Shown piece by piece: positions 1 through 46,864 of a stretch of 64,000 bases of DNA (position 1 is its first letter; every line of letters begins with the position of its first letter). The DNA comes from Candidatus Gastranaerophilales bacterium (lineage in GTDB: Bacteria; Cyanobacteriota; Vampirovibrionia; Gastranaerophilales; Gastranaerophilaceae): contig CALVBS010000004.1 in assembly GCA_944325865.1 (NCBI GenBank), positions 186,001-250,000 of the forward strand, given 5' to 3'. Made by a program: the position numbers and the translations under genes. The notes below the pieces were generated by a model. The model did no database searches and was not told the origin of the DNA. It saw only the letters and a list, made by a program, of their open reading frames with translations.

Positions 1-1153
1 CTTCGGTAATCTCAGGAGGAAGCACACTTCTTTCAAGAGTAACCGCAATAGAAATTTCTTCAATCATACCAGGCTTTAAGTACTCATTAAGCTGTGTTTT
101 ACTGACACCATACTGAGTTTCAGTTGCAGAACGCGAGTAGCTTCTTTCCTGACTTGAATCCATTCCGCCGCCGGCAATTCCGTTTGGAACATAAACACTT
201 ACTGCATTTAAATTTCTGTTACTGTCACGGGTTTCATCACCAAGGCCCTCGGTAAATGACTGCTCATTGACAGAGGCTTTTCTGTCAGGATCATAATCCG
301 TACTGTACTTTTCTGCAGGTGCCTGACGAAGGAAAGTGCTGACGGTTGCAACATAATTACCTTTCCCGATTAATCTGTCCAACTGAATCTGAACTTTTTG
401 CTGCATATATTTATCGTTTTCTTCAATTTTTGCAAGCATTTCATCAGAAGCATTCATTATACTATGATAAACATTACCGTTTGTATCGGTAATTGAAATA
501 TTTTCAGCCTCTAATCCGGAAACACTGCCAAGAAGAAGATTTGTAACTGCCTTTACTTTTAACTGATCTAATTTTTCACCCGACGGCATTACAATCTGAA
601 CTGTTGCAGTAACAGGTTTCTGCATTGAGGTAAACATTGTTTGTTCCGGAATTGAGATAAAGACAGAGGCATTTTCAATCGGAGGAATCTTTCTTATTAA
701 TCTTGACAATTCCCCGTTGATTGCTCTAACCAGTCTTATTCTTTTATCTTCTTTTGTTGAGGTAAAATCACCTTTATCAAAAATTTCAAGCCCTGTATTT
801 TGATCCATCAAACCGCTTTTAACAATAGCAAGAAGAGCCTGATCCCGCTGAGTCATTGTATATTCTTTTAAAAAAATAGTAGATTTAGTACCATCAAGTT
901 TTCTGCTTGCGACAATACCTTCGCGTGCAAGGAGAGCTTGAATTTCTATTGCTTTACCCAAATTATCGGTAGTCAATAAATCCAGAGGTTCTTTGATAAC
1001 TTTTTCACTTACAACCCTTGCGGCCCCGTTAGAAGACCCGCTGCCCGATACTGCAACAATCGATATGGTAAGGATAAGAGCTATTACCAGTACAGCTCCG
1101 CCTATAATTCCGTATAATAAAGGTTTATTTTGTAAAATCTTTTGAAAATCCAT
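1..1153 (-). CDS. fliF: Flagellar M-ring protein FliF (N-terminal part, cut by window edge)
   Basis: This open frame runs off the left edge, so only the first 384 codons are present; full FliF is about 500-570 residues. FliF builds the MS ring in the inner membrane, the base on which the flagellar export apparatus and rotor assemble. The product starts MDFQKILQNK, has one hydrophobic segment at about residues 11-33, and then a YscJ/FliF-type ring-building domain, including a stretch reading ALLAREGI and, later, SVFISIPEQTMF. The ATG at 1151-1153 follows a GGGGA ribosome site. It lies 68 bp downstream of fliE in the same direction, the common fliE-fliF order. The C-terminal FliG-binding tail is outside the window. 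Confidence 0.93.
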   Translation of the reverse strand, partial: MDFQKILQNKPLLYGIIGGAVLVIALILTISIVAVSGSGSSNGAARVVSEKVIKEPLDLLTTDNLGKAIEIQALLAREGIVASRKLDGTKSTIFLKEYTMTQRDQALLAIVKSGLMDQNTGLEIFDKGDFTSTKEDKRIRLVRAINGELSRLIRKIPPIENASVFISIPEQTMFTSMQKPVTATVQIVMPSGEKLDQLKVKAVTNLLLGSVSGLEAENISITDTNGNVYHSIMNASDEMLAKIEENDKYMQQKVQIQLDRLIGKGNYVATVSTFLRQAPAEKYSTDYDPDRKASVNEQSFTEGLGDETRDSNRNLNAVSVYVPNGIAGGGMDSSQERSYSRSATETQYGVSKTQLNEYLKPGMIEEISIAVTLERSVLPPEITE

Positions 1154-1221: not shown

Positions 1222-1560
1222 TTATACCTGAATCTGCATTACTTTGTCATAGGCCTGTATAACTTTACCCACGGCAGTTGTTGCAATATTAACGGTAATT
1301 TCGGATTTGGCCATTGCTGTCATAACATCGTGGATATCAATATTGTTATTTCCAGACATTACGTCTTTTAACAGGTTATCCGGAGCATTGAGTTCCTGAT
1401 TAAAATTCTCCACAAGCCCTGAAAAAACAGCTTTGAAATCTCCTGTCGCAGGAGTTTCCATTCTTTCCATTCTTGCGGACGGAATACCATATAGTCCGGA
1501 ATCAAGCTTTGTATGCTGGATTCTGGCTGGTAAATTGTAACTCGGATAAAAATCTCCCAT
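1222..1560 (-). CDS. fliE: Flagellar hook-basal body protein FliE
   Basis: FliE is the small adaptor between the MS ring and the proximal rod. The 112-residue product has the FliE C-terminal half: DIHDVMTAMAKSEI (about 75-88), then helix residues ending KVIQAYDKVMQIQV, close to the family's usual KVVEAYQEIMRMQV ending. The N-terminal 40 residues are not conserved, as is normal. The start is supported by an AGGAGGT site about 9 bp upstream. It heads the fragment of a flagellar operon with fliF, so the organism probably makes a flagellum or at least a basal body. Confidence 0.92.
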   Translation of the reverse strand: MGDFYPSYNLPARIQHTKLDSGLYGIPSARMERMETPATGDFKAVFSGLVENFNQELNAPDNLLKDVMSGNNNIDIHDVMTAMAKSEITVNIATTAVGKVIQAYDKVMQIQV

Positions 1561-3293: not shown

Positions 3294-3321
3294 TTGACTT
3301 TAAAAAAAACATGATTATAAC
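3294..3321 (+). promoter_or_regulatory. Putative sigma-70 promoter for the 3370 gene
   Basis: TTGACT (3294-3299), a 16-bp spacer and TATAAC (3316-3321) lie about 50 bp before the start codon of the 508-residue protein. Base match only. Confidence 0.45.
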
Positions 3322-3369: not shown

Positions 3370-4896
3370 ATGGGTATGGCAGCTTCACAGGCCAGATATT
3401 TAGGTTTAACAGCAAGAAAAACAAACGTTGAATATGAAGGACAGCAAATAAATCAGGCACGTACGGCCCTTGCAAACCAGAGTGCAAATACATTTAATGA
3501 TCTTCTGGCACTTGAAGTACCGACAGCTCCAAGCACTCAGGATTATACTGAATTAATCTATTCTTATGAAGAAGGAACTGAAAAAGAAACTATTACCGGT
3601 ATGGCAAAACTGGAAAATGATCCTGACGGATACAATTATCTTGTAACCCATTACCATTATGCTGATGTTTATACCGGCGTTCAAAATAAACTTGCTAATC
3701 CACAGGTAATAGAAAGCGACAGTTCGCAAAGAGGTTCTGTCAGCAGAGATTCAATAGGGACAGTGGAAGAACCGACCTATAGCATTAACGGTCACGAATT
3801 ATCAAATTATGACCCTGCCGATCCGACACAGAGTGAATTATACAGCAGGCTGGCCGCAGAATATCCGGAACTTGCCAATGCTGAAATATCTAATTTAAGA
3901 TTTTACACAGACGTTGACGGAAATGTTCATTTTGTAATGAACACAGAAGTTACCGGAGATGGAACGGTCAATTCTTACTCCATTGACCCTGACACCCAAA
4001 ATCCGACAGTACAAACACTAAACAGAGGCAGTGTCACTGAAACCATGCCGGAAAACGTAACATATACTGTTAACGGACATCCTGTAAGTGCTTACGACCC
4101 GACAAATCTTGCTCAGAAAAATGTATTTGATAAAATTTCACAAGATTATCCGTCTATAGCCAACAATATTGATGATGTAAGATGCTATATGGATGACAGT
4201 GGTGCCATTCATTTTACGACACAATCAGCACTTGAAGGAACAGGAGATATAACAGATTATTCTGTCTTGAGCGGAATTCCGACACATGTCGGCAACTGTG
4301 AATTAACTCAATATAATCCGAATGATGCAGAACAAAAAGCCGCATATGAACAAATTTTAAAAGATTGGCCGGATTCTTCTCTGGCACTTTCAGACCCTTC
4401 AGATATTTATGTATGGGAATTTCAAGGAGAAACCCGTTTTGCATCAAGAAACGACTTAACAAGTGCTGCAATAAGCGGTCCTGACCAGACACAACCTTCC
4501 GAAAATCAGGACAAACTAACTTACTACGTTGCTCAGGATGTTAAAACAAAAATTGAAAGAACAGAAAAAGCAATGATTGATGTCGATGAAAAAGGACGAC
4601 CACAATCTGTAAAATTTGAAGATTCATCAGTAACATATGCACTTTCAACCGAAACGGTAACCGACGATGCTGCTTACCAGGACGCAATGAATCAGTATAA
4701 TTACAACATGGAAGTCTATGAAAAGAAAATTCAGGATATCAATGCCAAAACTAAAAAAATTCAAGAACAGGACAGAACCCTTGAATTAAGACTCCGACAA
4801 CTTGATACCGAACAGGAAGCACTGCAGACGGAAATGGAAGCGGTTCAAAAAGTTATTGAGAAAAATATTGAATCAACATTCAAAACTTTTGAATAA
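3370..4896 (+). CDS. Unrecognised 508-aa protein: two-helix core with three-repeat insert
   Basis: No known family is recognised. The N-terminal 45 residues form a predicted helix (ASQARYLGLTARKTNVEYEG) reminiscent of the D0 helices of flagellar axial proteins. Three related segments of about 75-95 residues follow, starting near residues 137, 232 and 306, each with a pattern like NGHxxSxYDPxxxxQ, then YPxxxN, then F or Y in an acidic strand. Residues about 430-505 are a charged coiled coil ending KNIESTFKTF. The two end helices match the 107-aa protein at 6283 without gaps over the last 43 residues. GGAG lies before the ATG. It is first in a same-strand series next to fliE-fliF. There is no signal peptide, so if exported it would need a non-Sec route. 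That link to the flagellum is inference. Confidence 0.8.
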   Translation: MGMAASQARYLGLTARKTNVEYEGQQINQARTALANQSANTFNDLLALEVPTAPSTQDYTELIYSYEEGTEKETITGMAKLENDPDGYNYLVTHYHYADVYTGVQNKLANPQVIESDSSQRGSVSRDSIGTVEEPTYSINGHELSNYDPADPTQSELYSRLAAEYPELANAEISNLRFYTDVDGNVHFVMNTEVTGDGTVNSYSIDPDTQNPTVQTLNRGSVTETMPENVTYTVNGHPVSAYDPTNLAQKNVFDKISQDYPSIANNIDDVRCYMDDSGAIHFTTQSALEGTGDITDYSVLSGIPTHVGNCELTQYNPNDAEQKAAYEQILKDWPDSSLALSDPSDIYVWEFQGETRFASRNDLTSAAISGPDQTQPSENQDKLTYYVAQDVKTKIERTEKAMIDVDEKGRPQSVKFEDSSVTYALSTETVTDDAAYQDAMNQYNYNMEVYEKKIQDINAKTKKIQEQDRTLELRLRQLDTEQEALQTEMEAVQKVIEKNIESTFKTFE

Positions 4897-4925
4897 AATA
4901 ATTAACTTAGTAAAAAGAGGTACAA

Positions 4926-5744
4926 ATGGCTTACAAAAACGACAGTTATCTGGTAATAGCAAATAAATTCGGCTCCGCAAGCGGAGATGCCAAGGCTATG
5001 CTATTTGAAACATACGATAAATTAAGAGATTTAACCGTATCAGGGAACGGAGCCGGCACAGGATTCGGAATGACGGGAAGTTTTCTTTACAGAATTGCAA
5101 GCTTGATGGCTCCGTCATCGTTTGCTAATGTTTTTGGAGCCTCTGAAACAATGAATGTACCGGGAACATCCTATAATTCTTCTTTACCTGGAGGTTCTGC
5201 TTATGGTATTGATTCATTATATAACTATTCCGGATTTCCAAGCGGTGCAGCACCTATTTCCTGGAGTTTTGGAGGTACGACAACAGGCGGAGCCTCAAGT
5301 ATCCTGGGCTGGGGGAGTTCTACAGGCGGTACAGCAACCGGATATGCCTCCAATATAGGCGGAATTGCAGATATTGCAAATGCTGCAGCATACGGCTTAG
5401 GGGCATCAAACGGCTATGGCTGGGTAGGTAAAAATATTGTTCTGCCTATTGCCGGTATGATTTCCGGATGGGGCGGTATTATGCAGGCCGCAGCACCTTA
5501 TTTGGGCGAATGGGGCCTTCCGGCAATCGTAATGTCTAATTTAATGCAGGGAACATCTTCTGCAGCACTCGCAGCATATCAGAATGTCTCGGGAAATATC
5601 ACGGCAAATGCCGACGTAATACTTTCTAATAAAGTACGAAATATTGAAACAGTCTGCAAAATGCTTGATACGCAGGGTGATGTTGTTAAAAAGATGCTTA
5701 AAGAATCAATCGATGGCGACAGTAAAGCTATTCAAAACTTATAA
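4926..5744 (+). CDS. Unrecognised Gly/Ala/Ser-rich protein
   Basis: A 272-residue product without a recognisable domain. After about 70 mostly helical residues it is unusually rich in Gly, Ser, Ala, Tyr and Trp up to about residue 180 (for example SFGGTTTGGASSILGWGSST), then has moderately hydrophobic stretches (IVLPIAGMISGWGGIMQAA). The end is a helical tail (NIETVCKMLDTQGDVVKKML). No N-terminal signal peptide. An AAAGAGG site precedes the ATG. It starts 29 bp after the previous gene and is probably co-transcribed; a strong terminator follows. The composition could suit a fibre, a surface protein or a membrane-inserting protein; none of these can be shown. Confidence 0.72.
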   Translation: MAYKNDSYLVIANKFGSASGDAKAMLFETYDKLRDLTVSGNGAGTGFGMTGSFLYRIASLMAPSSFANVFGASETMNVPGTSYNSSLPGGSAYGIDSLYNYSGFPSGAAPISWSFGGTTTGGASSILGWGSSTGGTATGYASNIGGIADIANAAAYGLGASNGYGWVGKNIVLPIAGMISGWGGIMQAAAPYLGEWGLPAIVMSNLMQGTSSAALAAYQNVSGNITANADVILSNKVRNIETVCKMLDTQGDVVKKMLKESIDGDSKAIQNL

Positions 5745-5788
5745 CACTTATAACCATTTAAAAATATGTAAAATTTTATTGCAAAAAC

Positions 5789-5828
5789 AAATAATCCTGA
5801 AATTTTCATTAAAGTTTCAGGATTATTT
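5789..5828 (+). terminator. Rho-independent terminator
   Basis: A 14-bp stem, AAATAATCCTGAAA (5789-5802) with TTTCAGGATTATTT (5815-5828), sits 45 bp after the 4926-5744 gene. The 3' arm ends in a T-rich stretch. It separates the first two genes of the cluster from the next two. Confidence 0.75.
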
Positions 5829-5997
5829 GCCGATACATAAAACAGAAATCTGAAAATATCTTGATTTCTGAGTGTAATGACAACAAACAAGACCGGTAAA
5901 CTTTAGTTAAAACATGTTACAAAACCTTTACAAACATGGCAATATTTTCACCGTAAATGTTTTTATATACATGTAGGTCTAAAGTGTAAGGAGAAAA

Positions 5998-6270
5998 ATG
6001 CTTCGTGATACTTTAGAGATGAATATAAAAAGAATACTCGATTTCTTGATATATTCAAAAAATTTCCTAATAAGAAAAAGCCCGATAAAGGCTATGATGA
6101 ATTCGATTGTAGAAGGTATCAGAGATTTTCTTACAATGAAAAGAAAATTGAAAATGGCACAATACAGATTGAATTATCACAGGCACCAGTTCCAGAAAAT
6201 GGAACAGCTCATAGCGGAAAACAACCAGCATAGCTTTTTGAGGGGAAACAATCTCAACGAAACCAGATAA
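5998..6270 (+). CDS. Unrecognised 90-aa basic helical protein
   Basis: A small, very basic protein (many Lys/Arg, His) with predicted helices throughout. The central part (TMKRKLKMAQYRLNYHRHQF) could form a coiled coil. AAGGAG lies 5 bp before the ATG, a strong reason to accept the gene. The 6283 gene begins 12 bp downstream, so the two are very likely translated from one message. An antisense open frame (6067-6369) covers both genes but lacks comparable support. Function unknown; a small export chaperone or adaptor would fit the size and position but is only a guess. Confidence 0.65.
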   Translation: MLRDTLEMNIKRILDFLIYSKNFLIRKSPIKAMMNSIVEGIRDFLTMKRKLKMAQYRLNYHRHQFQKMEQLIAENNQHSFLRGNNLNETR

Positions 6271-6282
6271 AGGGAAAAAGCA

Positions 6283-6606
6283 ATGGGTGTCATTACAGAT
6301 ACAATCAGAATGCATTATTTGACGAATGTCAAAATGGATTTGGAATTTAAAATCCAGCTGGTAACTCAAAACCGTATGGAATTAACAGAAGCTTGCAATG
6401 ATTTAATGCAGGTTGGTTCCGACTATGATTCTGATAACCCTATAATGAAAACACTTAACCAGCGTCAGCAAAAGTTAAAAATTCTGGAACAAAAACTTGA
6501 ACATCAAATGGAACAATACCAGATAAGATTAAAAATGGTTGAAACAGAACTCGGCTCATGCAAACAGAGAATTGATAAAAATATTCAGGAAGCCTTCTCT
6601 TATTAG
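6283..6606 (+). CDS. Unrecognised 107-aa two-helix coiled-coil protein
   Basis: The product is almost entirely helical: an N-terminal helix (residues about 5-45, HYLTNVKMDLEFKIQLVTQN) and a C-terminal coiled coil ending DKNIQEAFSY. Both halves resemble the ends of the 508-aa protein at 3370. From the Asn that begins each C-terminal coiled coil to KNI, both have exactly 43 residues, with 11 identities including TE and IxKNI. This protein therefore looks like the minimal form of that family, without the repeat insert. It follows the 90-aa gene by 12 bp, with an AAGGG site. There is no signal peptide. Confidence 0.75.
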   Translation: MGVITDTIRMHYLTNVKMDLEFKIQLVTQNRMELTEACNDLMQVGSDYDSDNPIMKTLNQRQQKLKILEQKLEHQMEQYQIRLKMVETELGSCKQRIDKNIQEAFSY

Positions 6607-6621
6607 TTCATAGCGATATAA

Positions 6622-7293
6622 TTAATTAGTTTGAATAAAAAGACTGATAATATCATTTACTGCAGCATATTGTCTTTGATATTTCTGTGTTTGAGCCTCA
6701 AGAATATTAATTTGTTTTTTATATTCAAGAATGCTGTTCTGGCACTCTCTTGCTGATTGATTTAAGCTTTCCTGTACCTGCTGGGCTTCCTGCAAAACAC
6801 TATTCATTGAAATTCCAAGAGCTTCCATTGTCTGTTTTATAATCAAAGCACCGGTATGTTTTGAAACCCCTGAAGGCAATTTTGTAATCAACTGTTTTAA
6901 CACTGCAACATTGGAAGGAAGTTCCATTTCTTCAACTGCAGATAAATCAGGAGCAGGAGCAGCCTGCTGAGCAGTATAAGAAGAACCGTAAAAATTTTCC
7001 TGAGAATTTACGGTAGGAATTTGAGTTTGAGGGTGAGCAATCTGCGAAAAATTGAAGGTCTGGCTTTGTGCCTCACGTCTTGCTGATTCTAAATCTACAG
7101 AAGCAACAGCTTCCTGTAATGATTTTGACAGAGCATTTTCAGCTTCATCAGATGTAATGTTTTGCTGCACATTGTACTGATTGACAGGCTGAACAAATGG
7201 TTCTGAAACCGGAGTGATTTCAATATCATTTTGTTGTTTTAATGCTTCAACGATTTTTTTACCGACACCTTCTGTAATTTTGTTGTTAATCAT
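6622..7293 (-). CDS. Unrecognised coiled-coil protein
   Basis: A 223-residue soluble protein. The first 120 residues are low-complexity, rich in Gln, Ala, Pro and Ser (possibly disordered). Residues about 125-220 look like a folded helical domain: ELPSNVAVLKQLITKLPSGV, then a Gln-rich coiled coil of about 60 residues (QESLNQSARECQNSILEYKK) ending in ISLFIQTN. GAGGGA lies 5 bp before the ATG. It converges on the 6283 gene with 15 bp between stops and diverges from the PurH-like gene. A scaffold or envelope-associated role is possible; no function can be assigned. Confidence 0.72.
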   Translation of the reverse strand: MINNKITEGVGKKIVEALKQQNDIEITPVSEPFVQPVNQYNVQQNITSDEAENALSKSLQEAVASVDLESARREAQSQTFNFSQIAHPQTQIPTVNSQENFYGSSYTAQQAAPAPDLSAVEEMELPSNVAVLKQLITKLPSGVSKHTGALIIKQTMEALGISMNSVLQEAQQVQESLNQSARECQNSILEYKKQINILEAQTQKYQRQYAAVNDIISLFIQTN

Positions 7294-15444: not shown

Positions 15445-16384
15445 AACACCTGAACTACTAGTAGAATATAAAAGAGATTCCCTTATTGAACAGGAGCATT
15501 ATGGATATATTATTGTAGCAGACAAAGAACACATTATTGACAGTAAAGGAGATTCTGCCAATTATCCGTTTTTTCTCCGTTCATGTGCAAAACCATTGCA
15601 AGCAAGTCTGTTAATTGATTACGGAATGGATATCCGATATAACATGACGGAACAGGAAATTGCACTATGCTGTGGTTCTCATGCCGGAGAATCCATACAT
15701 ATAAATATTGCTCAAACACTTTTAGAGAAAATAGGAATTAATGAAAATCAGTTAAAATGCGGCATCCATAAGCCGCTATCAAAAACGGAACAGACAAGAA
15801 TGCTGCTTGCAGGAGAACAGGCAAGAACATTACACAATAACTGCTCAGGAAAACATATTTTTATGCTGGGGTTGTGTAAAATGAACGGATGGGATTTGGA
15901 AACTTATGATGAATTAAACCATCCGCTTCAGCAGGCAATAAAAAAGAAAATTTATGACCTCTGTGAATTAAAAAAAGAATATCCTATAACAAAAGACGGA
16001 TGCGGAGTTCCAATATTTGCAATGCCGCTTTTCAACATGGTTAAAGGATATCTGAATATGTTTACCAATCCGCGGTATGAAAAAATTAAAACCGCAATCC
16101 TTAATAATCCATACATTATAGGCGGAGAAGACCGAACCGATACAAAAATCATTGCGAATTCCAAAAATCTTATTGCCAAAACAGGAGCCGGCGGTTTATT
16201 TATTGTGGTTAATACAGAAACAGAAGAGGGACTTGTCGTAAAAATCTGTGATTCTGATATGAAAGCAAGAGAACTTGTTGTAACAGACAGCCTCAAAAAT
16301 CTGCACTGGGCTGATATTGAGGCTGACCATTCAATTAAAACACTTCACGGTAATGTTGTAGGGGAAATAATTACTTTGTTATAA
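15434..16384 (+). CDS. Asparaginase II family protein (Rhizobium etli type)
   Basis: Likely hydrolyses L-asparagine to aspartate and ammonia in the cytoplasm. This family is unrelated to E. coli asparaginases. Catalytic features known from the R. etli enzyme are visible: the SxxK motif in RSCAKPLQA (about 50-58), the Ser of CCGSHAGE, the CxxK of NNCSGKH, and the Cys of DGCGVP. Length 316 is normal for the family. The ATGATG start lies inside the end of the 14707 gene (11-bp overlap), so translation is coupled. Its 3' end overlaps the convergent 16371 gene by 14 bp, leaving no room for a terminator. Confidence 0.88.
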   Translation: MMIRTPELLVEYKRDSLIEQEHYGYIIVADKEHIIDSKGDSANYPFFLRSCAKPLQASLLIDYGMDIRYNMTEQEIALCCGSHAGESIHINIAQTLLEKIGINENQLKCGIHKPLSKTEQTRMLLAGEQARTLHNNCSGKHIFMLGLCKMNGWDLETYDELNHPLQQAIKKKIYDLCELKKEYPITKDGCGVPIFAMPLFNMVKGYLNMFTNPRYEKIKTAILNNPYIIGGEDRTDTKIIANSKNLIAKTGAGGLFIVVNTETEEGLVVKICDSDMKARELVVTDSLKNLHWADIEADHSIKTLHGNVVGEIITLL

Positions 16385-17462
16385 GCTTAACCTTGCTGCC
16401 CCAGAAACTTTTTACATCTCTATTGTAATCAGCAAGCTGTGCTGCAAATTCCGTTTTATCAGGATATTCCAGTCTCAAAAGTCTTATGCCGTCATTGTAA
16501 ACTCTTTGAGCTGTATTGGTTATACTTTTCGGGATATTACCGTTATACATTTTACTTGCGGTTGCCATATCAAAGAGTCTGCGTTTACTCAGTCCGCTCA
16601 TAGGTTGCTTTGTTGCTGCAGAAACATTGTTGGTCATCTTACATATTGCAGCTTCATATTTACCATTTTTTAGACACCATAAGAGTCCCTCTGTATTTTT
16701 GATAATATCAGTACCTTTATTAAATGTCATATCAAGCAAAGCTTCCTTTAACGAAGCAGGGAGTTTGTCATAATTTTTCTCTCCGCCCATCAGAACTCTT
16801 AAATGATCTTCTGCTTTAATCAGATCTTTTGCAAACTGTTCCAAAACTTGTTTATTATTAAGGTATTCAGGTTCGCCTTCTTTCCAGACATGCCCTATGC
16901 CTATTGTCTTTGTTTTGCCTTTGTCATTATAAGGAGTATTATGAAACTGGGTGTCTTTCAATTCTTTACCGTCTTCAATTCTTTTTATACCAAGAATAAA
17001 TTCATTACTGACTCCCATTGATTTTGCAACATCTTTTAGTGTATTTATATTTTTCGGAGTCCTTGTAGGAGGGATTTTTAAACTTTGCCCTGCACGAATT
17101 TTTACGGCACTCTTTTCATCTAAACCATTTACTGCCATTACGGCAGCAGGCTGAACCCCAAATTTTGCCGCAATTTTTGAAATATTATCACCTTTTTGAA
17201 TTTTATAATTTGGATTTTTAGTAACAGTTAGATACTTACTTCTGGTATTTTGCTGCATTATTTGTTCATCGGAAATATCTCTAATAAGAGGAATTTCAGT
17301 AGTTTTAGCAGGTTTTGCATCATCTTCTCCGGAGAAAAAATCCGCAATTTCCGAGAATAAACTCATAGCATATTCTTTGGCACGTGTCCAAAAACTTTTT
17401 TCTTCCTGAACAGGTTGTTGTCTCACATTATTCTGTTGTAAAGTTATATTCATTTCAGTCAA
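16371..17462 (-). CDS. LysM plus GH24-type lysozyme-like cell-wall hydrolase, no signal peptide
   Basis: The 363-residue product has a LysM peptidoglycan-binding domain (about 85-132, YKIQKGDNISKIAAKF) followed by a T4-lysozyme/phage endolysin-like domain. In the latter, E163 (IKRIEDG) fits the catalytic Glu, D180 the catalytic Asp, and TIGIGH (186-191) is the family signature. MTFNKGT later matches the conserved helix of GH24. The N-terminus (about 45 residues) carries no signal peptide or membrane helix. The start is TTG at 17462, 9 bp after GAGG; an in-frame ATG is 9 bp further in. It lies 13 bp after the 17476 gene and is probably co-transcribed with it. It could be a developmental or self-lysis enzyme, or be secreted by a non-Sec route. 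Confidence 0.83.
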   Translation of the reverse strand: MTEMNITLQQNNVRQQPVQEEKSFWTRAKEYAMSLFSEIADFFSGEDDAKPAKTTEIPLIRDISDEQIMQQNTRSKYLTVTKNPNYKIQKGDNISKIAAKFGVQPAAVMAVNGLDEKSAVKIRAGQSLKIPPTRTPKNINTLKDVAKSMGVSNEFILGIKRIEDGKELKDTQFHNTPYNDKGKTKTIGIGHVWKEGEPEYLNNKQVLEQFAKDLIKAEDHLRVLMGGEKNYDKLPASLKEALLDMTFNKGTDIIKNTEGLLWCLKNGKYEAAICKMTNNVSAATKQPMSGLSKRRLFDMATASKMYNGNIPKSITNTAQRVYNDGIRLLRLEYPDKTEFAAQLADYNRDVKSFWGSKVKLITK

Positions 17463-17475
17463 AATTAATATCCTC

Positions 17476-19743
17476 TTAATTCAATAACGTGGCTTCAATA
17501 GCATTTGCAATACATTCAGCATATTTATTCTGATCAAACTCCGACAATAATGAATTTGTAATATGTCCGTTTGCAATATTACCTATTTCGAGCAGAGAAG
17601 AAGGAATTCCTCTGGTAGCATTATTAACATATAAATCGTCATGAGTGGAATCAGGAGTAAGTGCCATAAAACCTTGATTAACATACCGGCTTATATTGTC
17701 TGCCAATTCTTTATCAATATCTTTTGTATATCTTACAGTACACATTTTAGATTCCGGTTTTTCCTTTGCGGATTCAACGTGTACTGATAAAAATAACATA
17801 TCTTTTTTATCGGTATCCTTCATTAATTCACGAACGTTATCATCACCTTTTTTACCGGCGAGCATACCTTCCAAATACTTTTGAGCAGCCATTCCTCCGT
17901 TTCTTACGGCACCGGAAACAATAACAACTTTTGCTCCACGTTTCCGCAGATTATCTGCTATCTTTTCTACATAGCTTTGTGCAACACGCCATTCTTCAAT
18001 AGGCATCTGCTCTCCCTCTGCATTTTCAACCGAAAGGACCGTTCCGGCATCAAAGAATCCGTTTTTCTGCTGATATCCGCCGTGTCCTGGATTAAGAACC
18101 ACAACTTTGCCGTCAAGACTACCGTTTGCAGTAGGCTCAAGGACTTCAGTTACAGCCTCAATCTTTTTGGTTTCTGTATTGTAGTTAGGTAAAGGCCTTA
18201 CTATAAAAGGATCTTTTACATCTTTAAATCCAGGATCTCTTTTACCTCCGCTTAATGCCCAATTTTTCAGAGTTCCTGCATTTACATAATTTCCATCTGC
18301 ATCTTTTATTGTAGTCATTGTTGTAGGGGTAATATCTTTGCTGTGTCCACCGTTTGTCGAATAAAAAATTTCATTCGGATAAGCTTTTCCGCTTAAGTGA
18401 AGAGCATTACTGCCTGTATTTGCAGTTCTTTCTTCTTTCTTTTTTGACTTTTTGGAAGATGTTTTTCCGGAAGCATCAGTTTTTCCGTCAGGATAAATAT
18501 AACTGTTTAAAATTTCATCCATTTTATCAGTGGAAACTGTTCCAAAAGAATCAAATTCGTCATTCAATTCATTTATAAATTCTTTACGTTTTTCAGGTGT
18601 TGCAATTTTGCTTCCAACATTTGCTGCAACGAGATCATAAATTTTTGTCATTGCGGCTTTTCTGCTTTCTTGTGAACTGCTCCACTCTGAAGCTATAGTA
18701 TCAAGAAGACTTGAGTCTGAAAACCACCCGTTACCTTTTATTTTGTCGTATTCTTTCAGGACATCCACTACATTATCCTTTGTAATGTCGCTAAAAGGCA
18801 TTTGAAAATTATCTTTTTCAACACACCCCTTTTCACCTGACGCATCTTTCAATGCTTGAGCAATCTGTGAAGGAGTTTTTTCTCCCATATTAAAAATCAT
18901 TTTGTCAAGTTTTTTTGTCGAAACCGTACCAAAAGAATTAAATTCATCATCAAGTTCTTTGATAAAAGCCTCCCGTCTCTCTGCAGTAGCCTTAGGAGAA
19001 CCGGCTTTTTCCGCAAGCAAATCGTAAACCCTTGTCATTGCCGCTTTTCTTACATCCTTATCACTTCCCCATTCAGAAGAAATCATATTAATCAAACTTT
19101 CTTTAGGAGAAATTTCATTGTAAGCTCTCACAACATCATTAATATTATCTTTATTCAATTTAGCAAAAATTGCATTAAATTTATCTTTACCGACAGCACC
19201 GGCTTTGTTGTCAGCTTCCTCATAAAGAGCTTTTGCAATTTCTTCTGGAGATTTAATTTTACTTACCTCAGCCCTTGTTTCCGCATCCAGTTCCGGAACT
19301 TCCAACCCTTTCAGTTCTGTACCGGAATGTACCTGCTTCTTTGCTCCTCCGGATGATTCTGTGCTGTCAGATTTTTTAAATTTTACATAAAACGATTCGC
19401 CTTTTTGCGGCTGATAACTTTTATCAATTCCATTAAGTTCACAAAATTCCGCAAGTGACATACCGTATTCTCTTGCAACTGATGTTAAGCCTTTACCTGC
19501 TTTAACTTTAGCTGTCGGAACATTTTTAATCACCTGACCCGGTTTCAATGTTGAACTTTTTAAGCCAGTCTTCTTTTTGAACTCTTCGACAGACATCCCA
19601 AACTTCTTGGCAAGTTCTGGCAGAGTCGTTCCTTTTTCAACAACATATTCACCCTTCATTCTTAATTCACGGTTTTTCTTCAAAGCATCTTCTTTAAGAT
19701 TTGCTTTATTACTCGTACCGGCTCCCGACACGCTTAAAGACAT
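17476..19743 (-). CDS. N-acetylmuramoyl-L-alanine amidase (Amidase_3) with two LysM and two novel repeats
   Basis: The 755-residue product has two LysM-like segments (about 33-77 and 79-125). Two tandem homologous helical repeats of about 125 residues follow (starting near 164 and 289); each contains an SEW motif, then RKAAMT and ends in FGTVST. A linker leads to a C-terminal zinc amidase (about 545-752). Its zinc ligands are NPGHGG, the Glu in PIEEWR and SVHVE; the catalytic Glu is in SLLEIGNIAN. It should cut the bond between MurNAc and the stem peptide. No signal peptide is visible, which is odd for a wall enzyme. The helical repeats have a helix pattern loosely like annexin repeats. AAGGAG precedes the ATG. 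It is first in an operon with the lysozyme. Confidence 0.85.
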   Translation of the reverse strand: MSLSVSGAGTSNKANLKEDALKKNRELRMKGEYVVEKGTTLPELAKKFGMSVEEFKKKTGLKSSTLKPGQVIKNVPTAKVKAGKGLTSVAREYGMSLAEFCELNGIDKSYQPQKGESFYVKFKKSDSTESSGGAKKQVHSGTELKGLEVPELDAETRAEVSKIKSPEEIAKALYEEADNKAGAVGKDKFNAIFAKLNKDNINDVVRAYNEISPKESLINMISSEWGSDKDVRKAAMTRVYDLLAEKAGSPKATAERREAFIKELDDEFNSFGTVSTKKLDKMIFNMGEKTPSQIAQALKDASGEKGCVEKDNFQMPFSDITKDNVVDVLKEYDKIKGNGWFSDSSLLDTIASEWSSSQESRKAAMTKIYDLVAANVGSKIATPEKRKEFINELNDEFDSFGTVSTDKMDEILNSYIYPDGKTDASGKTSSKKSKKKEERTANTGSNALHLSGKAYPNEIFYSTNGGHSKDITPTTMTTIKDADGNYVNAGTLKNWALSGGKRDPGFKDVKDPFIVRPLPNYNTETKKIEAVTEVLEPTANGSLDGKVVVLNPGHGGYQQKNGFFDAGTVLSVENAEGEQMPIEEWRVAQSYVEKIADNLRKRGAKVVIVSGAVRNGGMAAQKYLEGMLAGKKGDDNVRELMKDTDKKDMLFLSVHVESAKEKPESKMCTVRYTKDIDKELADNISRYVNQGFMALTPDSTHDDLYVNNATRGIPSSLLEIGNIANGHITNSLLSEFDQNKYAECIANAIEATLLN

Positions 19744-30123: not shown

Positions 30124-30693
30124 TTATACGTTATCATCATTATCAGAAGTTTTATTATAACTATCAGCGAGATTATTCAAATTTTCAGCTAATTGCGGAG
30201 CATAATGGTCAACAACTTTTGTTGTATTATTATACAGGGTTCCAAGCCCTGAAATAAGGACACATCCTGCTAAAAAGCCCCCGCAAACCTTACATCCGTA
30301 TTTTACTGCCGGCGTTTTAACGAATTTTTGAACTAATTTACCGGCTTTCATATTCTTTAAAGAATTCAACATATTTTCTGTAAAGTGTTGGGCATTTAAT
30401 TTAAAATTCCGAAAAATACCGTTTGCTTCTTTTGCAAGTCCTGTAACAGCTTTTTTGGATTCATTAACTGTCTGCATACCTTTTTTTATGTCACCGGTCA
30501 ATTTTGCGGATGTAGAAGATGCATCTTTTAATTTTTTAGCCATATTCAGCCCGCCGCCTTTTACGGCAGTATAACCTGCACCTGCAGCACCGCCGGCAAC
30601 TGCAGTATCTCGAATGTCTTCCCGTTTTTCATCAGACAATCTTCTGTTATTTACTTCATTTGATGTGAACGCAATCGGACTAATTTGTAACAT
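30124..30693 (-). CDS. Unrecognised membrane-associated protein with Gly-rich segments
   Basis: A 189-residue basic protein. The N-terminal tail contains ISPIAFTSN, followed by a Gly/Ala-rich stretch (AVAGGAAGAGYTAVKGGG), a Lys-rich helical middle, and a hydrophobic segment with cysteines (YGCKVCGGFLAGCVLISGLG, about 135-154). The ending is acidic and Asn-rich. No cleavable signal peptide. AAGGAT lies before the ATG. It begins 14 bp after the 30708 gene, so the two form an operon. Confidence 0.7.
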   Translation of the reverse strand: MLQISPIAFTSNEVNNRRLSDEKREDIRDTAVAGGAAGAGYTAVKGGGLNMAKKLKDASSTSAKLTGDIKKGMQTVNESKKAVTGLAKEANGIFRNFKLNAQHFTENMLNSLKNMKAGKLVQKFVKTPAVKYGCKVCGGFLAGCVLISGLGTLYNNTTKVVDHYAPQLAENLNNLADSYNKTSDNDDNV

Positions 30694-38795: not shown

Positions 38796-39926
38796 TTACT
38801 TTACAGGTCTTGCCATAAATTCTGCATCTTTTGCATAATGTTGAATTAATGAAAGGATTGCATCATAATCCATATTTTCCTGATAATCCAGGAGTTTAGC
38901 AAATGCCCGAACTTCGTCTTCATTCAAACGTCCGCCAACTTCTATCAAATCTTTCTGGAGCGGAGTTAATTTTCCGGACTTATTGCCGGCAGCTATCTGA
39001 TAGGTAATACCTTTACTAAAGCCCTTATCTACTCCAGCATCCGGAAGTCGAAGTGAAACAACATCAGTGCCGGTTTCCGAATCTTTAAATGAAGACACAA
39101 GGTTATTTAGCCATTTAGATTTAATTCTATCCGGGGCAATATTGTAAGAACAAAAATCATTTTCAATAGCTATACTACCACTTTCTGAAAGATGATTTTT
39201 ACGGAGCATATAATCTGTATAACCACCTCCGGAGGTATAGTTTGTGACAGCTAAATCCATTTCGTCTGCCCCGTACGTATGAGGTTTAACACCTTCCGGC
39301 AGCATACCTTTTTCTGTATATAAGTCAATCGTTTCCTGAAGATTTTTACCGTCTGCAGGAGAATGCTTTATATTATAACGCTGATGAACATTTTTTAACT
39401 CTGCTGCATACAATCTTCTGACCTCTGTGAAATCACCTTTTCCTTCAAGTGCCTTTTTCAAAGCTTGTGCAGTTTCTGTATTTGATTCCTTTAGAATCCT
39501 TGCCAACGAAAAATTTGAACCATCCCTAAACATACAATCGAGCATTCCATACTCACGATACATTTTATTTAATTCGTCAAAATTTTTTGTTTTTTTAGCA
39601 TTCGCAACCACTGATGTAAGTTCTTCATCAACTTTTGACATATCAAATCTTTCAGCGTATCTTTCATCACCTTTTTTAACTTTAATTCTATGCTGCAACG
39701 AATCTGTTATTTTATCTAAAGCTTTAGTAAATTTGGCTTTTTTAGCATACATAATACCACCTATTACAGTACCTGTAACAGCAAGTGCAGCACCTGTACC
39801 TATCAAAATTTTATTTGCTGAATTTTTCTTTTCTTCAGCTTGAGGAGATTTACCAAACGAGGTTTTACTATCTACAGATTTTGTGTGCTGAAACTTAATC
39901 TCATTGATACCTGCTACTGATGACAT
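38796..39926 (-). CDS. Unrecognised 376-aa protein with single Gly-rich membrane helix
   Basis: The N-terminal 35 residues form a tail with Lys/Ser and IKFQHTKS; a membrane helix follows (ILIGTGAALAVTGTVIGGIM, about 40-59) ending in a Lys-rich anchor. The remaining 310 residues are a soluble, mostly helical region (DFTEVRRLYAAELKNVHQRY; CSYNIAPDRIKSKWLNNLVS) with no recognised family. The Lys-rich flank after the helix suggests that the large domain is cytoplasmic or exported by an unusual route. AAGGAG lies before the ATG. Confidence 0.72.
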   Translation of the reverse strand: MSSVAGINEIKFQHTKSVDSKTSFGKSPQAEEKKNSANKILIGTGAALAVTGTVIGGIMYAKKAKFTKALDKITDSLQHRIKVKKGDERYAERFDMSKVDEELTSVVANAKKTKNFDELNKMYREYGMLDCMFRDGSNFSLARILKESNTETAQALKKALEGKGDFTEVRRLYAAELKNVHQRYNIKHSPADGKNLQETIDLYTEKGMLPEGVKPHTYGADEMDLAVTNYTSGGGYTDYMLRKNHLSESGSIAIENDFCSYNIAPDRIKSKWLNNLVSSFKDSETGTDVVSLRLPDAGVDKGFSKGITYQIAAGNKSGKLTPLQKDLIEVGGRLNEDEVRAFAKLLDYQENMDYDAILSLIQHYAKDAEFMARPVK

Positions 39927-45730: not shown

Positions 45731-46864
45731 TTATTGAACCTGAGTAATTACACCTTTTCCAAAGACCTTATAATCAGTATCCCAACCGGTAAACATTCCA
45801 AAGGCAGATTTCCCGTCAGAAGATTTAGCGTACTTTTTAAGTTCATTACCTAGTTTTGTATCCATTAAAACAATCTTAGTAGTACCGTTCCCTTGCAGTA
45901 AAGTCGAGGTATATTTTGCGACAATACTTGAATATTCATCTTTATCAATATTGGCGATATGATCAATTACAAGACCAACTCTGAACTGGTTACCGGGATT
46001 TGTTGTTTTTTCACAGGTTACAAGCGGCTTATTATCTGCATTATTTTTATAGAAAGAAATTTTATAGGTTCCGTTATCACCGACGATTGTCTTGGTTGGA
46101 GCAGTTCTTGTATATCCGGTAAGGTTATAACCTGTTGACTTATCTAATATATTACCCCTTGAATTATTCTGGAAGGTTGCCGAAGGTGTCAAACCTAATG
46201 TTCTGTTATAAACATTAACCGGAATGACATCTTTATTAGGATTATTAGCGATTTGCTGCTGTATATATTTTGCAATAGGGTCGTTATTCATAGATAATTC
46301 TACAGATAAACCATTCGGCTTTGATACAATTTTTGTCATTGGTAAAACACCCTGACTTATACCGTCATCAGAAACTATATTAAAGTTAATTTTATTTATA
46401 GCCTTTACTGTTGCAGGCATATCATTATAAGCTATACCATTAGCATCTATAGTAACTAATTCAATCGCATCAAATCCTGAGCCTCTTCTACCTTCAGTAT
46501 TAACAAGATTTACAATATAACCGCTTATATTTTGCCCCTTTGCCGGAAACTGTTTTGAAGCAAGAATTACTTTACTTGATGCTGCCGCACTTACACTTGA
46601 GATGTCATTAACATCAGAAGTTTCAACAAGTTCAATCATATCTTCAGGAAAGTCCGCAATTTCAGAGGCATTAATATTTGCTGTATTCAAAGGACTCATT
46701 GCAAGAAGCGTCATTAAAGGTACCGCTTTCAAAGCAGACGCTTTCTTACTGGAAAACTCATTTGATTGATATTCAAAACCATCGTTATTATTTTTTCTAC
46801 CAGTAAAACTTGTATTATAATTATTACCATTTAACCCTAAACTCATCACCGGTGTAATAGCCAT
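45731..46864 (-). CDS. Unrecognised 377-aa protein with N-terminal SFTG tail
   Basis: The N-terminus has a short tail with NTSFTGRKN, then a region with a weakly hydrophobic stretch (ALKAVPLMTLLAMSPLNTAN, about 44-63) that could be a late signal sequence. The rest (about 90-377) is beta-rich with alternating hydrophobic residues (ISGYIVNLVNTEGRRGSGFD; VVTIDANGIAYND-like) and may be an extracellular beta-sandwich. GGAG lies about 10 bp before the ATG. Followed downstream by the 962-aa gene; the pair may be one unit. No family recognised. Confidence 0.7.
   Translation of the reverse strand: MAITPVMSLGLNGNNYNTSFTGRKNNNDGFEYQSNEFSSKKASALKAVPLMTLLAMSPLNTANINASEIADFPEDMIELVETSDVNDISSVSAAASSKVILASKQFPAKGQNISGYIVNLVNTEGRRGSGFDAIELVTIDANGIAYNDMPATVKAINKINFNIVSDDGISQGVLPMTKIVSKPNGLSVELSMNNDPIAKYIQQQIANNPNKDVIPVNVYNRTLGLTPSATFQNNSRGNILDKSTGYNLTGYTRTAPTKTIVGDNGTYKISFYKNNADNKPLVTCEKTTNPGNQFRVGLVIDHIANIDKDEYSSIVAKYTSTLLQGNGTTKIVLMDTKLGNELKKYAKSSDGKSAFGMFTGWDTDYKVFGKGVITQVQ

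Follow-up and report, generated by a model that had tools for sequence, protein, structure and literature searches.

A two-helix protein family that tracks a second, divergent flagellum-type export apparatus in Gastranaerophilales

Two proteins of a Candidatus Gastranaerophilales bacterium, a gut-dwelling relative of cyanobacteria that lacks a flagellum, share both their N-terminal and their C-terminal helices, one being of 508 and the other of 107 amino acids (aa). Their family is linked not with flagella but with an export apparatus of flagellum type, a second and divergent one. By ‘window’ is meant here the whole stretch of DNA that was analysed, i.e., 64,000 nucleotides (nt) of assembly GCA_944325865.1, contig CALVBS010000004.1, positions 186,001 to 250,000 of the forward strand, from a genome of 2.03 Mb that is 99% complete. 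The 508-aa product of window positions 3370-4896 is termed W508 and the 107-aa product of positions 6283-6606 is termed W107, with neighbouring products (W272, W90, and W223) named in the same manner. The reading we favour, with a probability of roughly 0.68, is that the two-helix proteins are exported, axial-type proteins of this second, flagellum-derived apparatus. What the analysis shows is the family itself, its architecture and insertion history, its co-occurrence with the apparatus, synteny, promoters, and the structural resemblance of a model. The two genes and their parts are as follows.

3370 to 4896, plus strand: W508, expanded two-helix protein, 508 aa (open reading frame, ORF; N- and C-terminal modules common to eight other long paralogues)
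3373 to 3507, plus strand: W508 N-terminal helix, residues 2-46, MG..ASQARxLxxTAR module (AlphaFold2; nine residues invariant in nine paralogues)
3769 to 4494, plus strand: W508 middle, three related units of ~75-95 aa (by eye; repeated H/E pattern in the model)
4666 to 4890, plus strand: W508 C-terminal helix, residues 433-507, ..LDTEQ..LQTE..VIxKNxExTFKxF (AlphaFold2; five columns invariant across aligned paralogues)
6283 to 6606, plus strand: W107, minimal two-helix protein, 107 aa, with helix 2-45, turn, and helix 53-106 (AlphaFold2, predicted local distance difference test, pLDDT, 88; orthologues in 115/194 genomes)

Both ORFs are present at these coordinates and with these lengths. Over the last 43 residues up to KNI the two proteins align without a gap and with 11 identities, a count given by a first-pass annotation of this DNA and here reproduced exactly; none of 20,000 shuffles equalled it (z 5.0). 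The N-terminal helices, which that annotation had likewise seen as matching, align gaplessly from Met1 over 43 residues, again with 11 identities (0/20,000 shuffles equal; z 5.4). A single-sequence tblastn search links W508 to W107 weakly (E 0.11). The homology nonetheless is firm, as profiles that include relatives settle what the single-sequence search left weak. That is, an N-terminal profile (N-profile) built from nine long paralogues, with W107 excluded, recovers W107 orthologues at 5e-9 to 5e-6. Profile-profile comparison of the ends using hhalign, a check that the first-pass annotation had itself suggested, matches long to W107-type proteins at 96% for the N end (E 1.8e-9) and 96% for the C end (E 8.3e-9), with controls, i.e., neighbouring coiled-coil proteins, falling below 1%. 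On sequence grounds the minimal and long forms may firmly be treated as one homologous family, as had been proposed. Among 119 members, none has a hydrophobic, signal-like stretch within its first 42 residues (top 12-residue mean hydropathy 1.08), which bears out the earlier claim that a signal peptide is missing. An NCBIfam search gave nothing relevant to the family. W508, W107, and the eight other long proteins have no match to the Pfam families Flagellin_N, Flg_bb_rod/Flg_bbr_C, and FliD, and the 54 or 31 relatives searched have none either.

The source genome carries not one but nine long members, of 335-708 aa, spread over four contigs. These start with MG(M/L)(S/A)A(S/T)QAR and end with LDTE..LQTE..VIxKNxExTFKxF, their middles being unrelated; the middle of one (L024:2058-4094, minus strand) holds GLUG motifs (PF07581, 6.2e-7), which are chiefly familiar from surface proteins. 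Within the middle of W508, units 1 and 2 are similar at an offset of 94-95 by self-comparison, unit 3 being recognised by inspection only, and W508 orthologues, at 332, 416, 508, and 599 aa, differ in length by close to one such unit (a module of ~90 aa). A C-terminal family module standing alone, with one TAG inside (L023:1837-1965; own genome C4:79837-79965), is a possible broken paralogue.

Distribution was surveyed in 194 genomes from the class, 97 of them in the source organism's own family and the others in families some of which are labelled here f2, f4, f5, f6, f7, f9, and f10. N-profile matches occur in 117/194 genomes, that is, in 97/97 of the own family, with 3-15 matches per genome, as well as in f2, f4, f9, f10, and, as one weak match, f5. 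W107 orthologues are found in 115/194 genomes, and an own-family genome nearly always has just one. Named relatives are Candidatus Gastranaerophilales and Scatousia metagenome-assembled genomes from the gut, and judged by these matches the family is found in Gastranaerophilales and related orders.

Sampled members from f4, f9, and other orders are all ~109 aa, each being exactly the two terminal modules of W508 with a short turn between them. In a tree of terminal modules the long forms make up one clade (99/91) and the W107 orthologues another (100/98); this tree is rooted by outgroup families. The minimal hairpin likely is the ancestral form, with the long forms being a single clade that received a large insert at the hairpin turn. 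The first-pass annotation had placed the extra residues of the larger protein between the helices, which the sampled minimal members and the tree together support. W508-W272-W90-W107 is a conserved four-gene cassette (3370-6606), its order kept in more than 30 loci, with a convergent gene next to it:

4926 to 5744, plus strand: W272, Gly-rich protein with hydrophobic segments, directly after W508 (synteny in more than 30 loci)
5998 to 6270, plus strand: W90, small basic helical protein, directly before W107 (synteny)
6622 to 7293, minus strand: W223, convergent neighbour, its position kept in many close relatives (synteny)

A minimal-form gene in another order adjoins a W272 homologue (L202, E 9e-70), and another minimal-form gene adjoins a W90 homologue; the cassette, i.e., W508-W272 and W90-W107, therefore probably is older than the insertion. 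The tree link between W107 and the minimal form that adjoins a W90 gene is weak (92/49). Pfam and NCBIfam searches place W272 and W90 in no known family, and a C-terminal family module within W272 is too weak (hhalign 22%) to be claimed.

Structures were modelled with AlphaFold2 and matched with Foldseek, followed by VIA-align on rows that Foldseek had pre-selected. W107 is modelled as a helical hairpin, and W508 as a beta-rich middle flanked by helices 2-46 and 433-507 (pLDDT 90). The top 14 VIA rows for W508 are all chains of the flagellar rod, hook, filament, or cap (Z 9.4-5.8, the next being 4.4), FliC-, FliD-, FlgE-, and FlgG-type chains among them, with matches that span residues 1 to 508. 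Examples are 2.2 Å over 107 residues with a flagellin (7sqd) and 1.1 Å over 60 with a hook protein (3a69). Rod/hook similarities picked out by eye (GLSASQARLL/GLNAAQTRLD and QTEYDSVKSVI/QRAYEANAKVI) were dropped upon hhalign values of 0.9% and 0.3%. Given the structural match together with the negative rod/hook sequence comparison, W508 is described as axial-like on structural grounds and is not filed in the axial family. As modelled, that is, W508 resembles flagellar axial proteins in plan, with D0/D1-like terminal helices and a variable middle, much as the first-pass annotation had supposed. Hairpins match many things, so no fold is assigned to W107: its VIA matches are generic hairpins, including CT398, HP0958, and LapA, and are uninformative as to identity, while a search of solved structures by sequence with a W107 profile gave nothing significant. 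Pfam searches of 31 W107 orthologues gave no match to a type III secretion system (T3SS) needle family, though single-sequence searches of this kind would miss remote relatives, and a needle identity is not claimed.

The apparatus itself begins in the window, where the closeness of fliE and fliF that the first-pass annotation reported does hold:

2 to 1153, minus strand: fliF, running off the window start (open ORF; FliF C-domain match on the adjoining stretch)
1222 to 1560, minus strand: fliE of the B-type export apparatus (Pfam PF02049, 1e-15)

Beyond the window start fliF is followed by a gene at the fliG position, by fliH, and by a B-type flhA (FliH and FHIPEP matches). The gene at the fliG position (358 aa; L063:17908-18984, minus strand) has no FliG Pfam match and is conserved in B-type operons. 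Encoded elsewhere in the source genome are FliO, FliP, FliQ, FliR, and a FliM/N-like protein, as well as FlgB/C/F/G, a hook/rod-like protein, and FliK, the FlgB assignment being sub-threshold in Pfam (18.1 bits) and backed by operon position and relatives. Neither flagellin, MotB_plug, nor FliD_N was found in the source genome. ‘A-’, ‘B-’, and ‘C-type’ refer to lineages in the FlhA tree, A being the flagellar FlhA, B the divergent one, and C the sister of B. The B type makes up a clade (100/99) apart from flagellar FlhA, and flagellated relatives have both types along with, usually, two FliPs, where flagellin-less relatives have one. The C type, as a third lineage, is found in f5-f7 (L161-L166). 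The source genome also encodes a 492-aa protein that consists of an FlhA cytoplasmic domain (PF00771, 6.6e-49) with no membrane part (L171:5664-7142; own genome C5:149163-150641, minus strand), is seen in relatives too, and is possibly a soluble docking factor. Some B-type operons hold a lytic transglycosylase (SLT) gene between flgC and fliE (L158:4863-5444; L160:14819-15481, the latter at 3.4e-35).

It is this second, divergent FlhA, and not flagella, that the protein family tracks. Family members are found in 117/140 genomes that have FlhA and in 0/54 that do not, the reverse of the even spread in apparatus-less genomes that would have told against an association with export. FlhA-bearing genomes without the family have, where sampled, only A-type or sister C-type FlhA. 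Flagellin is found in 50/194 genomes and MotB in 49/194, with MotB_plug almost exactly in the flagellin genomes. Within the own family flagellin is absent from 75/97 genomes, all 97 of which have the two-helix family, and those 75 combine the family and FlhA with no flagellin. The flagellated family f5 essentially misses the two-helix proteins (9 genomes, one weak match), and f6 and f7 have neither flagellin nor any member. To the question posed in the first-pass annotation, of whether homologues are confined to flagellated genomes, the answer thus is no. In linkage, W107 lies 6.5-15.1 kb from a B-type flhA in 37/37 same-contig cases, all of these in flagellin-less genomes.

Promoters provide a further connection. 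The motif TAAAG-N16-CCG, close to the textbook sigma28 consensus but one base longer, stands 28-60 nt before the start of all eight scattered long paralogues of the source genome (44-60 for six), the distance for the L022 paralogue being counted from an upstream ATG. As the motif was first noticed in upstream sequences and only then tested, this 8/8 is post hoc. Related loci are a partly independent check: the motif precedes 13/37 other long paralogues, with an N15 version before 5 more, versus 7/602 background ORFs (Fisher 5e-13). A FliA/WhiG sigma factor is kept in the source genome despite its lack of flagellin (TIGR02479, 3.9e-72; L070:13105-13935; own genome C3:216604-217434, minus strand). 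W508 has a different signal upstream:

3294 to 3319, plus strand: W508 promoter, probably of sigma70 type, TTGACT..ATTATA (conserved in an alignment of the DNA that precedes 19 orthologues)

The favoured reading may be spelled out as follows. The two-helix proteins would serve a type III apparatus that is derived from a flagellum and which, in the source genome, is without flagellin, cap, or MotB stator, its set being a divergent FlhA/FliP, FliE, FliF, FliH, FliO/P/Q/R, FliM/N-like protein, FlgB/C/F/G, hook/rod-like protein, and FliK. N- and C-terminal helices would fold into a hairpin, with the variable domain of long members, inserted at the turn, facing outwards. The cassette would be switched on early, its products being structural parts or adaptors on the rod, and the scattered long paralogues late, from sigma28 (FliA) promoters. 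The latter would pass through the export channel and then, by assembly or by display, make up a non-rotating appendage on the cell surface that presents differing outer domains. Export, polymerisation, surface location, and order of assembly are steps that we infer, and the appendage itself is an unproven one. The first-pass suggestion of a new class of type III-exported protein is strengthened by synteny with flhA and by sigma28 promoters, with export still the inferred part.

A number of points weigh against this reading. Carriers of the family may be one clade, such that co-occurrence with FlhA is confounded by common descent, and synteny and promoter evidence therefore weigh more. In flagellated own-family genomes W107 is near flhA in 0/18 cases, the two being on different contigs, and the sigma28-type site is found with only 5/40 W508 orthologues, W508 itself being without it. 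One genome (G088) has family genes but neither a full-length FlhA nor W107, probably as a missing locus. As to structure, the predicted TM score (pTM) of W508 is only 0.52 and the relative placement of its parts therefore is uncertain; its VIA rows were pre-selected by Foldseek, whose sole match below 1e-3 is a flagellar filament at E 3.2e-4 with a template modelling (TM) score of 0.11 and a probability of 0.44; and hhalign against rod/hook profiles detects no sequence homology (<1%).

Other explanations account for part of these data. The proteins could be secreted effectors or adhesins, with helical ends that are only a module for export and for binding a chaperone, each protein acting singly and without polymerising, either outside the producing cell or inside a target cell. 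Long paralogues scattered singly, 3-15 matches per genome, and unrelated middles are indeed like effector repertoires, and the nearly invariant MG[ML]xx[S] start resembles the degenerate eukaryotic N-myristoylation pattern. Several minimal forms begin with MGF, though, which that pattern excludes, and a C-terminal helix as conserved as the N-terminal one, along with an ancestral stand-alone hairpin, is more easily squared with a subunit that assembles than with a tag for export, leaving this explanation an unlikely one. Less likely still, if not negligible, is the alternative, raised in the first-pass annotation as a cytoplasmic scaffold, that the proteins stay in the cytoplasm and serve the second apparatus as chaperones, as scaffolds, or as regulators of its export gate. 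W107 fits that role as a bare coiled hairpin located beside flhA, with generic matches that include CT398 and HP0958, and signal peptides are missing. Large, fast-varying, beta-rich middles with tandem repeats and GLUG motifs nevertheless would be unusual for a cytoplasmic chaperone, and late sigma28 promoters fit substrates better.

Di Rienzi et al. (PMC3787301) and likewise Soo et al. (PMC4040986) interpret the incomplete flagellar gene sets of certain gut genomes as loss, and for relatives of MEL.A1 and G. phascolarctosicola the corresponding explanation is a remnant of a decaying flagellum, without coordinated function. The absence of flagellin, FliD_N, and MotB from the source genome agrees with this. 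The retained FlhA, however, is not the flagellar one, as flagellated relatives carry it as a second copy, and 75 genomes without flagellin keep the same set in open frames, together with paralogues that have multiplied and sigma28 promoters that are intact; decay is accordingly very improbable. Lowest of all we would place substrates of some other export route, type VII-like two-helix or autonomous secretion, for which the flagellar linkage would be incidental. Helical hairpins of ~100 aa are the plan of WXG100/Lap proteins too, LapA being among the generic matches, but this is opposed by the tight linkage to B-type flhA, by promoters of FliA type, and by the lack of any member in genomes without FlhA.

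The apparatus and its protein family may be set beside several known systems. With flagellar axial proteins (FliC, FlgE, FlgG, FlgK/L, FliD) the family shares end helices, a variable beta-rich middle, lack of a signal peptide, and FliA-type promoters on scattered members; unlike them it has no detectable sequence homology and is kept where flagellin and MotB are absent. As with injectisomes, export is presumed to be of FlhA/FliP type, W107 is a small hairpin like a needle subunit, and, by analogy only, W272 has hydrophobic segments as do translocators. Injectisomes differ in that this apparatus keeps FliE, FlgB, and FlgC, and W107 has no needle-family match in Pfam. Abby and Rocha (PMC3459982) take the presence of those three proteins to rule out an injectisome, and with flagellin and MotB absent the apparatus therefore fits neither class cleanly. 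Buchnera, a non-motile symbiont, similarly keeps flagellar basal bodies without filament (PMC8109811), but as a reduced ordinary flagellum, whereas the FlhA lineage seen here is a distinct one, present alongside true flagella in relatives and accompanied by a protein family of its own. Myxococcales likewise have a flagellum-related apparatus without motility parts, a non-flagellar T3SS without secretin, which unlike this one, with its FliE and FlgB/C/F/G, lacks FlgB/C/E and FliE (PMC3459982). Two flhA genes were listed in ACD20 by Di Rienzi et al. and treated as flagellar (PMC3787301). Searches of open-access literature turned up no account of this family, nor of any second type III apparatus among Melainabacteria, Gastranaerophilales, or Vampirovibrio.

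Other genes in the window deserve mention in their own right. At 16371-19743 (minus strand) are two cell-wall hydrolases, of 755 aa (LysM and amidase) and 363 aa (LysM and endolysin-like), with no evident signal peptide. A sigma28-like TAAAG-N16-CCG lies 39 nt before the first, though by itself such a site is no commoner in the window than chance would predict, and the two are possible substrates of the same export system. By eye, three further gene products (30124-30693, 38796-39926, and 45731-46864, all minus strand) lack a signal peptide and start with a short leader that contains AFTS, SFGK, or SFTG.

Animal and human guts commonly harbour Gastranaerophilales, in which an incomplete set of flagellar genes has so far been taken to mean lost motility. 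Those gene sets look less like a flagellum in decay than like a functioning system for secretion or for a surface appendage. Tentatively, and at a little under even odds, this could be a third kind of type III machine, i.e., a flagellum-derived, non-rotating secretion appendage whose subunits are an ancestral hairpin plus exchangeable outer domains, coexisting with flagella in some relatives and replacing them in most gut Gastranaerophilales. If so, then most such species would carry a dedicated export system whose variable exported proteins number 3-15, a candidate new interface with host or neighbours. The family would also be a clear example of how a 109-residue hairpin can grow into a filament protein whose outer domain is variable, and as such bears on the origin of flagellin-like proteins.

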